Assembly (NCBI GenBank): GCA_004124535.1
Contig: SCKQ01000074.1
Span: 1 to 6,936, forward strand
Direction of reading: 5' to 3'
DNA length: 6,936 nt
Source: Fidelibacterota bacterium
GTDB lineage: Bacteria > Marinisomatota > Marinisomatia > Marinisomatales > TCS55
Shown here piece after piece: positions 982 to 6,914 of the stretch (the first letter of the stretch is position 1; every line of letters begins with the position of its first letter). The position numbers and the translations under genes were made by a program. A model generated the notes under the pieces. The model ran no database searches, was not told the origin of the DNA, and was given only the letters and a program-made list of their open reading frames with translations.

Positions 982-1776
982 TTAGTCTCTAGCCCATTGC
1001 AGGTCCAGCAGGGGTAAAATATGCAGTTGGGTCATATAATCATTAGGATAGCCATCAGGATACAAACCATAAATTAGCTTATACCCAAAGGAAATATGAA
1101 AACGCGGCGATTTTTCCCAGGTCACCACGCTTTTATGCTCCAAGGCCATGGAACCTTTCATACCAGGAATCAGGAAAAGATCTCCATCCACAAGGTATGT
1201 CCAATTGCGCTTTAAACGACCATTCATGTCTGTGCCCAGCCGGAGGAGCCAGCTATTATAGTACACCGCTAAACGATGATAGACCAGCGGTAAATCTATA
1301 GTGGACTCCATTGCCAGATCTGCGCTGCCCAAGGCAATTGCAACACCGGCTTTTGCTGAAAACACCCGATCTTGATCCAGCGGTTTGCTGGCAACTATTG
1401 TGTTCCATAATGAAAACATATGTGGTATTTCAAACTCGGGTGATATCATGGCGAACATATTAGGCCCACCTATGTCCATGCCCAGGGGGCTTTGCAGTTT
1501 TTTAAGTAATGGTGTGGGATAATAAAATGAATGGACAGTTGATATAGTCCACTCGCCTTTCTGCGGCCAGCGCTGTTTTACTGTTACGTTCGGCATCAGC
1601 AATGAAGATAATTTGAAAAAGGAAATTTCCCTATTTTCACTTTGTCCCCAGCGCACCGGCTGAAAAAGTCCATATTCCCAGCGACCTTGCGGCAATGTAT
1701 ACGCTGTTCCGGACAGCCATTCTCCTTGTGCAAACACTTGGCTGAATAAAATAGTTAAGATAAGAATTTTTTTCAT
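982..1776 (-). CDS. Secreted or outer-membrane protein of unknown family
   Basis: This is a 264-residue protein with a clear Sec signal peptide (MKKILILTILFSQVFA|QG, cut after residue 16). An upstream in-frame ATG at 1797 would add MCNYIRV before MKK. The start at 1776 is preferred because it begins the signal peptide and overlaps the stop codon of the preceding lipoprotein gene by one base (TAATG), a usual sign of translational coupling. I do not recognise the family. The mature chain is rich in aromatic residues, with repeated short beta-strand-like stretches (for example LAVYYNSWLLRLG and FHISFGYKLIYGLYP), which suggests an outer-membrane barrel or a barrel-associated protein. It is the last gene of the compact run with the DUF1028 protein and the lipoprotein phosphodiesterase, all of which are exported, so a role at the cell envelope is likely. 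The function is unknown. Confidence 0.75.
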   Translation of the reverse strand: MKKILILTILFSQVFAQGEWLSGTAYTLPQGRWEYGLFQPVRWGQSENREISFFKLSSLLMPNVTVKQRWPQKGEWTISTVHSFYYPTPLLKKLQSPLGMDIGGPNMFAMISPEFEIPHMFSLWNTIVASKPLDQDRVFSAKAGVAIALGSADLAMESTIDLPLVYHRLAVYYNSWLLRLGTDMNGRLKRNWTYLVDGDLFLIPGMKGSMALEHKSVVTWEKSPRFHISFGYKLIYGLYPDGYPNDYMTQLHILPLLDLQWARD

Positions 1777-2879
1777 TACTCTAATATAATTGCACAACTG
1801 ACCGGCGCATGGTCTGATAGATGAATGGTTTCTTGTATTGCCCCCTGGTAAGTGGTTCCACTGCCGGATGCAACGTTTTTATTAGTAAAAATATAGTCCA
1901 GTTTACGATCCCACCATCTGTTCACAGATGTGCTGTGTGTATTATGGTTAGCTGTAACAACTTCCGTTAAAGAAATTGCTGAATTGTAAGTATCATACAA
2001 CGATTTCAGCAGCAGCGGTTCATTTTCAAAATTATTGAAATAACTGCCTTCCAAATGTGGTCCGCCATCCACGTCTGTGTGAAATATATCATTTTCACAG
2101 GCATCTTCATCACAATAATCTATATTCGCACCAGGAGGAACAGAATTCAAATCTCCTCCAGCGACAAAAACATATCCCGCTACATCTATTTCATCAAGAA
2201 CTTCCTTGAATTTATCAATATGTTTTTGTTTCGTGTCGTCCGTTGCAAAGGCGGTGGCATGGACATTCACAGCATAAAAATCATCTTGATCAGGGATAGC
2301 TATTTTTGCTTTCAAGATATTTCTGCGCAAGTAGAACAATAGGGTCAGGTCATCCTGGTCGCCCCTTAAGGGAAGCTGAACACGTTCAGCTGATTCTATG
2401 TCCCATTTGCTTAACACAGCGTTGCCAGCATCAATACGACCAATGCCATCGCTGGGAATTGTTTGCGCTTTCCACATGGACGCATAGGCGGCGTAATTCA
2501 TGTCTGTATGATCCAGCAACCATTGCACCTGGTCAATGTATTGTGTGCGTTTGGATTCTCGATCGATTTCCTGGAACAGAATAATATCCGGATTAATGAC
2601 ATCGATTTCTGCAGCAACAAGCTCCAGGGCATCGAGCACTTCATTTTCTGTAAAAATACTTCGATCTCCGCAAGAGTCGCCAAAAAATGGCAACCGGCCA
2701 ATGCCAAAGCGGATATTCCACGTGAGCACTTTTAAAGACCCTTCGGGCGATGAGGCAGTACTAATATTTTTGGCTTCGTATAAAACAGCTTTCTCCACAT
2801 CATCAAAAGTGGTGACCAGCGGGTCACAGCTAAAAAGGAACAACGCCAGTATATATAAAAATGGTTTACCTTGTCTCAT
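1776..2879 (-). CDS. Endonuclease/exonuclease/phosphatase-family lipoprotein
   Basis: This 367-residue protein has a lipoprotein signal peptide (residues 1-17, lipobox LFSC with lipidated Cys18), so it is probably anchored in the outer or inner membrane and faces the periplasm or the outside. The catalytic core of the EEP superfamily (Mg-dependent phosphodiesterases: DNase I-, sphingomyelinase- and inositol phosphatase-like) is complete. LTWNIRFG carries Asn55, LFQEIDRES carries metal-binding Glu104, VNVHAT carries His207, GGDLNS carries Asp243 and Asn245, LDYIF carries Asp328, and LSDHAPV carries Asp356 and His357. The length suits a single EEP domain with insertions. Cysteines at 255-261 (YCDEDAC) may form a disulfide or metal site. 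The substrate cannot be told; extracellular DNA, phospholipid head groups and other phosphodiesters are all possible. The gene starts 13 bases after the DUF1028 stop without a clear Shine-Dalgarno site and shares one base with the next gene. Confidence 0.92.
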   Translation of the reverse strand: MRQGKPFLYILALFLFSCDPLVTTFDDVEKAVLYEAKNISTASSPEGSLKVLTWNIRFGIGRLPFFGDSCGDRSIFTENEVLDALELVAAEIDVINPDIILFQEIDRESKRTQYIDQVQWLLDHTDMNYAAYASMWKAQTIPSDGIGRIDAGNAVLSKWDIESAERVQLPLRGDQDDLTLLFYLRRNILKAKIAIPDQDDFYAVNVHATAFATDDTKQKHIDKFKEVLDEIDVAGYVFVAGGDLNSVPPGANIDYCDEDACENDIFHTDVDGGPHLEGSYFNNFENEPLLLKSLYDTYNSAISLTEVVTANHNTHSTSVNRWWDRKLDYIFTNKNVASGSGTTYQGAIQETIHLSDHAPVSCAIILE

Positions 2880-5061: not shown

Positions 5062-5970
5062 ATGAAAAGAAGACAATTTATCAAATTAGGTTTGCTGGGA
5101 ACCGCAGCGACCGGAATCGCGCCGGGAACTTTCCTAAAAGGAAGAGATTGTGATCTCACCAGTGATGATATCCTTGGGCCTTACTGGTCGCAAAACCACC
5201 CTTATAGAACCGTGCTTGCTCATACGGATGAACCTGGAACACGCATTTTTATTTCAGGTATGGTGCAGGCTAACGATTGTGAAACACCTCTGCACAATGC
5301 CATTGTTGATGTTTGGCATGCAAATGACAGCGGGTGTTATACTGTTTTCCAAGAGTGTAATTCAGGTAATCCGGAAGAAGATCCCTACAATCTTCGGGGG
5401 CAAATGCTCACCAATGAAAATGGCGAATATGCCTTTGAATCTATCTGGCCGGGACATTATGGAAGTAGGCCTAAACATTTTCATTATAAGATCACCACAC
5501 CTGAAAACCAGGAATTGGTGACTCAATGTTATTTTGAGGGTGATGCGCAAATTGATGAACAATGGGAAAACAACCATCCTGGACTGATCATACCTTTGGA
5601 AGAAAGTGACAATGGGCTTTATGGTGTATTTGACATTATAATGGACGAAGAGGCTCAAGTCGGAATAGAAAACGAGCTAGTGACTGTTCCGGAAAAAGCG
5701 TTTTTAAATCATAGCTATCCCAACCCTTTTAACAATTCGACTCAAATTGAATTTGGTCTCTCAAGATCGGGGCACGTCAGTATCAGTATTTATAATGTGT
5801 CCGGGAGATGGATCACTAATTTAACTGAGCAAAGTTGGCGGGCGGGAACCCACCTGTTAAAATGGAACGGACAAGATTCTTCTGGAAAGATGGTTCCTTC
5901 CGGTTCATATCTGGTGGTAATGAAAGCTGCCGGATTTACCGGATCGAAAAAGATTTTATTGCTTAAATAA
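5062..5970 (+). CDS. Tat-signal intradiol ring-cleavage dioxygenase with T9SS C-terminal sorting domain
   Basis: This 302-residue protein has three parts. Residues 1-28 are a twin-arginine signal (MKRRQFIKLGLLGTAATG; RRQFIK motif). Residues 30-205 form an intradiol dioxygenase domain of the short exported type: ILGPYW (37-42), a segment around VDVWHANDSGCY (82-93), and WPGHYGSRPKHFHYKI (129-144). The expected Fe(III) ligands Tyr93, Tyr133, His139 and His141 are all present, with the short Tyr-to-His spacing of this subfamily. Such enzymes open catechol-type rings between the two hydroxyls. Residues 214-302 are a T9SS type A sorting domain (SYPNPFNNSTQIEF, IYNVSGR, GTHLLKWNGQD, PSGSYLV, KKILLLK end). 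The protein should therefore be folded with iron before Tat export and then moved to the surface by T9SS. It has five cysteines. It follows alkB by 11 bases with no strong ribosome binding site, suggesting one transcript. The substrate is inferred only. Confidence 0.93.
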   Translation: MKRRQFIKLGLLGTAATGIAPGTFLKGRDCDLTSDDILGPYWSQNHPYRTVLAHTDEPGTRIFISGMVQANDCETPLHNAIVDVWHANDSGCYTVFQECNSGNPEEDPYNLRGQMLTNENGEYAFESIWPGHYGSRPKHFHYKITTPENQELVTQCYFEGDAQIDEQWENNHPGLIIPLEESDNGLYGVFDIIMDEEAQVGIENELVTVPEKAFLNHSYPNPFNNSTQIEFGLSRSGHVSISIYNVSGRWITNLTEQSWRAGTHLLKWNGQDSSGKMVPSGSYLVVMKAAGFTGSKKILLLK

Positions 5971-6456
5971 TCAAATCTCTTCAAAGACACCTGTTTTTTT
6001 ATTCTTTTGTACTTTATCATGATTAAAACACCGGCCATGCATGGCAATGTAGACGCCCTGTGGCAAGCTTTGCACAAAGCCCAAGGCTGCACCCAGATTA
6101 AATAACCCATCTGAACTGCCAAACTTAAATGGGATCATTGCGCCGGTGAGAACAATGGTCTTTTCCAAATTACCGCTTGCCAGAATCTTGGCTGTAGCGG
6201 TCATGGTGTCCGTCCCATGGGTAATTACGATCTGATCCTCTTCGGCCTGTTTACAATTATCGAGAATCAGTTGCCGGTCGTCATTAGTCATATCCAAACT
6301 GTCGATCATCATCAGGGTGCGGATATTGATATCAATACGGGCACGCCCCAGTTCCAATATTTCACGCACGTGTGTATCTTTGAAAAACAGCTTGCCTGTT
6401 ATTTCATTGTATTCCTTATCAAAAGTACCGCCGGTTATGAAAATTCTGGTGGCCAT
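5971..6456 (-). CDS. Single-domain L-asparaginase-like protein
   Basis: This 161-residue protein corresponds to the N-terminal, catalytic half of type I/II asparaginases, which are about 330 residues. Conserved elements are ITGGTFDKEY (7-16) with nucleophile Thr11 and Tyr16; IDSLDM (51-56) with Ser53; THGTDTM (79-85) with Thr82 and Asp83; and KTIVLTGAMIPFKFGSSDG (99-117) with Lys99. By alignment from memory these match Thr12, Ser58, Thr89, Asp90 and Lys162 of E. coli asparaginase II, so the active-site set looks complete. The C-terminal domain is missing, but the gene is not obviously truncated: it ends cleanly in TGA, and short one-domain members of this family exist. There is no signal peptide, so it is cytoplasmic. 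The ATG at 6456 comes 2 bases after the stop of the ArsC-family gene, suggesting translational coupling. The stop codon abuts the stop of the convergent dioxygenase gene. Asparagine or another amide may be the substrate. Confidence 0.9.
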   Translation of the reverse strand: MATRIFITGGTFDKEYNEITGKLFFKDTHVREILELGRARIDINIRTLMMIDSLDMTNDDRQLILDNCKQAEEDQIVITHGTDTMTATAKILASGNLEKTIVLTGAMIPFKFGSSDGLFNLGAALGFVQSLPQGVYIAMHGRCFNHDKVQKNKKTGVFEEI

Positions 6457-6458
6457 TA

Positions 6459-6809
6459 TTACAATAGTTTCAACACATTTTCCGGGGGACGACCTATAAC
6501 AGCTTTATCCCCTTTAACAACGATTGGGCGTTCAATGATCTTGGGGAAGTGGGTCATTGCCGCAATGAGAGCCCTATCATTGTCCAATGTTTCTTGCAAA
6601 TTGTTTTCCTTGAAATCTGCTTCGCCCTTACGTACAAATTCGTTAGGATGTTTTCCAAGTTTAGCGGCAAGATCTTTTAATATATCCCCCGTGGGGATGT
6701 CCTTTAAATATTCAATGATAGTCGGTTCAATACCGTTGTCACGCAACAGCTGCAGTGTCTGCCTGCTCTTGCCTCATCTGGGGTTATGATAGATTGTAAA
6801 TCCGTCCAT
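6459..6809 (-). CDS. arsC: Selenocysteine-containing ArsC-family (arsenate reductase-like) protein, in-frame TGA as Sec
   Basis: Translation from ATG at 6809 gives MDGFTIYHNPR, then TGA at 6776..6774, then GKSRQTLQLLRDNGIEP and on to TAA at 6461..6459: 116 residues with the TGA read as selenocysteine (U12). The parts on both sides of the TGA are in one frame and both belong to the ArsC thioredoxin-fold family: YHNPR-x-GKSRQTL, EPTIIEYLKD, FVRKGE and IIERPIVVKGDKAVIGRPPENVL. The TGA stands where the catalytic Cys12 of R773 ArsC stands, and His8, Arg60, Arg94 and Arg107 fall at the same residue numbers as the known active-site residues of that enzyme. The length is like that of short YfgD-type members. 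A gene caller that treats TGA as stop would start at the TTG at 6746 and lose the active site. A possible Shine-Dalgarno AAAGGA lies 10 bases before the ATG. Arsenate reduction is the family role; other oxyanion or thiol substrates are possible. It is cytoplasmic and coupled to the asparaginase-like gene. Confidence 0.88.
6732..6772 (-). promoter_or_regulatory. Candidate bacterial SECIS element within the ArsC-family gene
   Basis: Two overlapping hairpins can form just downstream of the UGA. Fold A (6750..6732) has a 7-bp stem GCUGUUG/CAACGGU with two G-U pairs and a 5-base loop CGUGA. The loop begins 30 bases after the UGA and has G in its second position, as bacterial SECIS loops usually do. 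Fold B (6772..6743) stacks three short helices: 4 bp (6772-6769 with 6746-6743), 3 bp (6767-6765 with 6750-6748) and 4 bp (6762-6759 with 6755-6752), with loop ACA. Fold B is longer and richer in GC pairs, but its loop lacks G and is nearer the UGA. The folds exclude each other; fold A fits the known SECIS pattern better. Folding was done by eye without energies. Confidence 0.5.
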
Positions 6810-6914
6810 TTGTGGTCAATCCTTTCTCGGTTAGGTGTGATTTGGACTGGTAAGTTAAGGATGTAATACCTATATCATCAACTGTGTCATTAAGGCTCAC
6901 TATGAGGTAGCATA
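6810..6914. other. Divergent intergenic region upstream of the ArsC-family gene
   Basis: This stretch separates the minus-strand ArsC-family start from a possible plus-strand start at 6915, so it should hold promoters in both directions. I could not pick a convincing -35/-10 pair on either strand. A minus-strand frame entering from the right edge ends in tandem stops (TAA 6892..6890, TGA 6889..6887) but is too short to judge as the tail of a gene. Confidence 0.3.

Follow-up and report, generated by a model that had tools for sequence, protein, structure and literature searches.

The window, by which we mean the whole stretch of 6,936 nucleotides analysed, carries an ArsC-family gene on its minus strand together with seven other protein-coding genes (Table 1). 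The frame runs from the ATG at 6809 to the TAA at 6461..6459 and spans 116 residues, interrupted once by a TGA in frame at codon 12 (6776..6774). Its translation begins MDGFTIYHNPR-U-GKSRQTL, where U stands for the TGA. No matches were returned when the window was scanned by ARAGORN and by Rfam at gathering scores, and a blastn search with the arsC gene found no matching phage record.

Table 1. Positions of the arsC-family gene, its putative recoding signal and neighbouring genes in the window
Feature	Position	Strand	Basis
arsC-family gene (TIGR00014), 116 codons, UGA at codon 12	6459..6809	-	Translation, NCBIfam/Pfam matches, R773 ArsC alignment
UGA codon 12, probably read as selenocysteine, aligned with the catalytic Cys12 of R773 ArsC	6774..6776	-	Translation, codon survey, alignment
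SECIS-like hairpin, 7 bp, loop CGUGA, apical loop 30 nt 3′ of the UGA	6732..6750	-	Synonymous constraint (13 sequences), pairing and covariation (20)
Apical loop CGUGA, G second, then U	6739..6743	-	Codons CGT GAC in 13/13 sequences chosen by protein similarity
Possible ribosome-binding site GAAAGG, 11 nt 5′ of the ATG	6821..6826	-	By eye
Asparaginase N-terminal-half protein, 161 residues, start 2 nt 3′ of the arsC stop, ends in TGA	5971..6456	-	Matches type I asparaginase N-terminal half only
Intradiol dioxygenase-like protein with T9SS type A sorting tail	5062-5970	+	Family matches
Exported Exo_endo_phos protein and outer-membrane-like protein	1776-2879 and 982-1797	-	Recur downstream of Sec-arsC

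The asparaginase-like gene is a possible operon partner of arsC. Relatives of its product, 63-83% identical, occur in 18 of the first 80 arsC loci surveyed (one of them partial). Among the 20 loci that share the window's hairpin type, described below, six, the window counted, have such a relative 200-700 nt downstream, and 13 have one on the same strand within -3 to +8 kb. The Exo_endo_phos and outer-membrane-like pair accompanies 31 of 68 loci with TGA at codon 12 and none of 60 with a Cys codon. Judged by eye, the recurrent neighbours of the TGA loci resemble glutamine synthetase, an Lrp/AsnC regulator, an exported endonuclease/exonuclease/phosphatase and an outer-membrane-like protein. The sorting tail of the dioxygenase-like protein is of a type unusual outside Bacteroidota. 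PADLOC models gave no match to P0001 or to the exonuclease-like and asparaginase-like proteins.

The 116-residue protein matches the NCBIfam model TIGR00014 (arsC) over residues 5-116 with 133.7 bits (cut-off 106.05) and Pfam ArsC (PF03960) with 63.6 bits (cut-off 24); its score against the R773-type model NF007456 (PRK10026), 86.5 bits, falls below that model's cut-off of 242. R773 ArsC (PDB 1i9d) aligns with it without gaps, residues 1-116 onto 1-116, so that U12/C12, H8, R60, R94 and R107 are numbered alike in both proteins. These positions make up what we take to be the R773 active site, with Cys12 as the catalytic residue and His8, Arg60, Arg94 and Arg107 around it. The motif at the catalytic position is UxxS, here U-G-K-S, and the protein has no Cys elsewhere. 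The first-pass annotation had described an ArsC-family frame broken solely by this TGA, placed the TGA at codon 12 and assigned the four other active-site residues their R773 numbers; the translation, both family matches and the gapless alignment bear it out on each point.

Relatives of the gene carry one of only three codons at this position. A scan of species genomes gave 84 passing ArsC loci, of which 80 were kept; these have TGA (33), TGC (27) or TGT (20) at codon 12 and no other in-frame stop within the match. The nearest relatives of the window belong to Neomarinimicrobiota (SAR406), the closest being T3L19, whose ArsC is 95% identical and whose flanking region has matches to all seven of the window's other proteins but one, the asparaginase-like protein. 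This kinship suggests that the window itself comes from the same phylum. Across 245 genomes of this phylum, 81 ArsC matches were found in 80 genomes; 66 of the matches are interrupted by one TGA and no other stop, and 15 are free of stops. Combining the sets, the window included, gave 133 loci that reduce to 128 distinct ones, with TGA in 68, TGC in 33, TGT in 27 and never TGG or any other codon; no further stop interrupts a matched frame. The column thus holds TGA or Cys (68 and 60 loci) and nothing else, as had been anticipated for close homologues, and relatives with random stops or decayed frames, named beforehand as evidence against recoding, are absent from the 128 loci. One genome (G203) has arsC in both a TGA copy and a Cys copy (L140, L147).

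The machinery for selenocysteine insertion is present in most of the closest genomes. It was surveyed in 15 genomes with TGA-arsC (G001-G012, G016, G017, G020) and five with Cys-arsC. In the TGA group, selB scores over its cut-off in 13 genomes and selA in 12, with one further partial selA under the cut-off. A tRNA-Sec of at least 58 bits (Rfam cut-off 47) is found in 13, and selD likewise in 13, in 12 of which selD itself contains one in-frame TGA. T3L19 has all four, its selD with an in-frame TGA of its own. Among the five Cys-arsC genomes, selB and selA pass in one (G013) and tRNA-Sec in two (62.4 bits in G018, 47.8 in G019). On a broader count, selA is over the cut-off in 28/33 TGA-arsC vs 4/37 Cys-arsC genomes, with 10 Cys genomes standing outside the count and Fisher p 2.5e-10 uncorrected for kinship. 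Inside the phylum this contrast is gone (57/66 TGA and 12/14 Cys genomes at E <= 1e-30), since selA is common there (177/245 genomes). In the portion of PMC5029168 consulted, three SAR406 entries are listed with orphan SelD organisms.

The nucleotides that follow the UGA appear to be under constraint beyond that of the protein. In a set chosen by protein similarity (the window and its 12 relatives L001-L012), synonymous conservation is maximal at codons 15-24, where observed minus expected conservation is 0.306 vs a median of 0.077 across codon windows. Arg23 is CGT and Asp24 is GAC in all 13 sequences, and these two codons make up the loop and the first 3′ stem base of the 6732-6750 hairpin. 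Pairing was assessed in 20 TGA loci, the window among them, chosen for CGTG at the loop site, so that their agreement on CGTG is by construction. In these sequences, 139 of 140 cells of the stem are paired (99.3%), vs only 24-80% for shifted versions of the hairpin, and 18 cells are altered on both sides, a number reached by none of 500 shuffles (mean 5.8). The both-side changes fall in four of the seven pairs, which 57/500 shuffles match and which is no excess; nor do further pair types exceed the shuffles (500/500 reach the observed number). When each gene is compared with its own synonymous recodings, the hairpin ranks among the best 5% in 18/20 TGA loci vs 5/59 Cys homologues (one of the 60 excluded for N). 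The Cys homologues mostly lack a hairpin at this place, although two Cys loci (L027 and L117) nevertheless have CGTG there. A small additional hairpin closer to the UGA has 85% of its cells paired and some covariation.

The bacterial SECIS model quoted in the portion of PMC13188914 consulted has a loop of 3-9 nt, a stem of 4-16 bp, a G in the first two loop places, a distance of 16-37 nt from the UGA and an energy of -7.5 kcal/mol or less. The conserved hairpin of the window fits in its loop (5 nt), stem (7 bp), G place and spacing (30 nt), and its energy falls slightly short, at -6.1 kcal/mol alone and -7.1 with flanks. The 24-nt hairpin stretch attains -7.5 kcal/mol in six of the 20 sequences.

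Taken together, the gene is best explained as a selenoprotein form of the TIGR00014 ArsC family, in which UGA 12 is read as selenocysteine by way of the 6732-6750 hairpin and the chemistry is likely R773-like; we give this reading a probability of about 0.88. Its selenocysteine part, proposed in the first-pass annotation, is strongly supported by comparative sequence evidence, namely the restriction of codon 12 to TGA, TGC and TGT, the sel genes of the closest genomes and the covarying hairpin 3′ of the UGA. The ribosome would decode UGA 12 as selenocysteine using SelB, tRNA-Sec and the hairpin. The selenolate of Sec12 would then attack arsenate, which is likely held by His8, Arg60, Arg94 and Arg107 as in R773 ArsC. 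Because the protein has no other Cys, the resulting Se-As adduct would have to be resolved by an outside thiol, for which glutaredoxin, a small thiol and thioredoxin are candidates. Arsenate reduction with an outside thiol is our best guess from the active site.

The alternative that survives best shares the selenocysteine part and differs in the substrate: the protein would be an ArsC-like thiol/selenol redox enzyme whose main cellular job is not arsenate reduction, for which YfgD is presumably a comparable case. Its support comes largely from genomic context. None of the seven other proteins matches an ars family, and two of them match no family at all, in a window that ends 127 nt 5′ of arsC. 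Inspection by eye picked out no ars gene in the 22 largest clusters of neighbours at the TGA loci. Acr3 is not enriched alongside arsC, occurring in 9/66 TGA-arsC genomes, 3/14 Cys-arsC genomes and 49/165 genomes without arsC (Fisher p 0.012 for depletion). ArsB was found in 0/245 genomes of the phylum by a search that may be insensitive, as its control was positive in B. subtilis alone of 14. The low score against NF007456 points the same way, as does the presence of the GSH synthetase family PF02955 in just 6/66 TGA genomes (5/14 Cys genomes). Against a non-arsenate role stand the score above the arsenate reductase cut-off of TIGR00014, the retention of all five active-site positions, and the finding that 12 of the 13 genomes in the window's subgroup match glutaredoxin, one of these matches being weak and partial. 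On this evidence a substrate other than arsenate is a serious contender, and yet the less probable of the two. With no arsenic-resistance context recognised, the true substrate becomes a testable question.

A different alternative keeps the selenocysteine and moves its signal to a nearer, more stable hairpin. That structure is the minimum-energy fold of the window (-19.6 vs -12.7 kcal/mol with the conserved hairpin enforced), and its covariation score of 0.122, against a shuffled mean of 0.097, is reached by 9/500 shuffles. The conserved hairpin, for its part, appears in 11 of the 20 predicted folds. Conservation separates the two: only 77.3% of the cells of the nearer hairpin are paired across the 20 sequences and its eight both-side changes are reached by 66/500 shuffles, in contrast to the 99.3% and 18 changes (0/500) of the 6732-6750 hairpin. 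The nearer hairpin was rejected for this poor conservation and is an improbable signal.

Reassignment of UGA as a sense codon throughout the genome, for example to Trp, would be suggested by protein databases. A search in which 7999 candidates were scored listed 120 matches (P0002-P0121), of which 60 have Trp at position 12, 47 have Cys there and 13 start 3′ of the TGA and so lack it. However, one Trp12 entry (P0002) is identical to the window at 115 of 116 positions when the TGA is read as Trp, and another (P0056) is identical at 113 of 116 to a TGA locus (L009) read in the same way. These near-identities, taken from protein records rather than from the DNA of the entries, indicate that the Trp entries are probably TGA translated under another code. 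The absence of TGG from codon 12 in the DNA of 128 loci, the Sec machinery of the relatives and the TGA that terminates the adjoining asparaginase-like gene all run counter to a sense UGA, and the codon survey and that terminal TGA rule genome-wide reassignment out. The in-frame TGA, taken alone, could also be a chance nonsense mutation or a sign of gene decay, a reading of negligible probability that is ruled out by recurrence across the phylum, 68 of the 128 loci carrying TGA at codon 12 and none a second stop in the matched frame.

The Trp12 and late-starting database entries are probable annotation errors caused by the UGA. Database copies of arsC, often 95-residue forms or forms with Trp at the active site, most likely represent a whole selenoenzyme. 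One Cys protein (P0015) falls within the Sec clade of the ArsC tree, where its Cys could reflect either a reversion or an error. That tree has 116 columns and unresolved deep forks, and its tally of six changes overcounts by one label or more, P0025 having Trp and not Cys.

Somewhat unexpectedly, the 68 TGA loci fall into two types, with the apical loop either 30 nt (20 loci) or 17 nt (48 loci) after the UGA. In the 17-nt type, 37/48 loops start with CGUG and 46/48 have GU as their second and third nucleotides, and pairing in the stem columns ranges from 42/47 to 47/48. This hairpin is among the best 5% of recodings in 27/42 loci (six excluded for N) vs 9/59 Cys homologues. The downstream Exo_endo_phos and outer-membrane-like genes accompany both types, at 14/20 loci of the 30-nt type (window included) and 17/48 of the 17-nt type, vs 0/60 Cys loci, counts taken over flanks of differing length. 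In an ArsC tree of the 31 loci that share this block, a single split separates the hairpin types (94/92, with the bootstrap unsettled). For the exonuclease-like protein, the tree requires at least two changes of type, since two loci of the 17-nt type (L041 and L058) sit beside the window's group. The Parcubacteria label of L041 may reflect mis-binning.

The evidence leans, without great force, towards a single selenoprotein family that, even with a shared downstream block, has its SECIS at two alternative places, 30 or 17 nt from the UGA, with a GU-containing loop, in most cases CGUG. On this reading, either the SECIS was rebuilt at another site without loss of Sec, or Cys gave way to Sec twice in one phylum. 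A moved signal, a swapped gene or two origins of Sec may lie behind the distribution of the types. If the two places are real, they would form a natural test set for the reach of SelB from the UGA. With the Cys homologues as controls, they are also well suited to comparative work on selenocysteine recoding.

ArsC selenoproteins of the UxxS type have been known since 2005, so that the gene of the window is a further member of a known family. In the portions consulted, the Sargasso Sea survey of that year reports an arsenate reductase with UxxS as a selenoprotein, from 14 sequences (PMC1088965), and the GOS survey includes the family as 'ArsC 1', with 77 sequences (PMC2398784). The remark in the first-pass annotation that ArsC-like proteins appear in marine selenoproteome surveys was correct. 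Excerpts of two reviews, from 2022 (PMC9312934) and 2026 (PMC13188914), also list the UxxS arsenate reductase selenoprotein, the latter under TIGR00014; the portions consulted of PMC8938466 and PMC4150793 add nothing on Sec-ArsC. Searches of an open-access collection for Marinimicrobia/Neomarinimicrobiota/SAR406 and selenium, one of which listed 10 of 64 papers, gave no listing that links Sec-ArsC to the phylum.

Among solved structures, 3f0i and 3rdw, of 119-121 residues, match best, and both are of the Cys form, unlike the Sec form of the window. We presume these two to be YfgD-like. R773 ArsC (1i9d) shares the gapless alignment and the catalytic positions, but has Cys12 in place of Sec12, is longer (141 vs 116 residues) and belongs to a type whose model the window's protein does not pass. 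The arsenate reductase-like selenoprotein NF041106 is also related to ArsC; it carries UxxC, with a second thiol in the motif, and is treated as a separate family in the portion of PMC13188914 consulted. The UxxS proteins of the marine surveys are of the same family, have Sec at the same motif position (here UGKS) and are likewise marine. The excerpts of those surveys leave the host phylum unnamed, whereas here the family is placed in Neomarinimicrobiota genomes and with hairpins at two positions. A family known from marine surveys is now tied to a widespread uncultured phylum.
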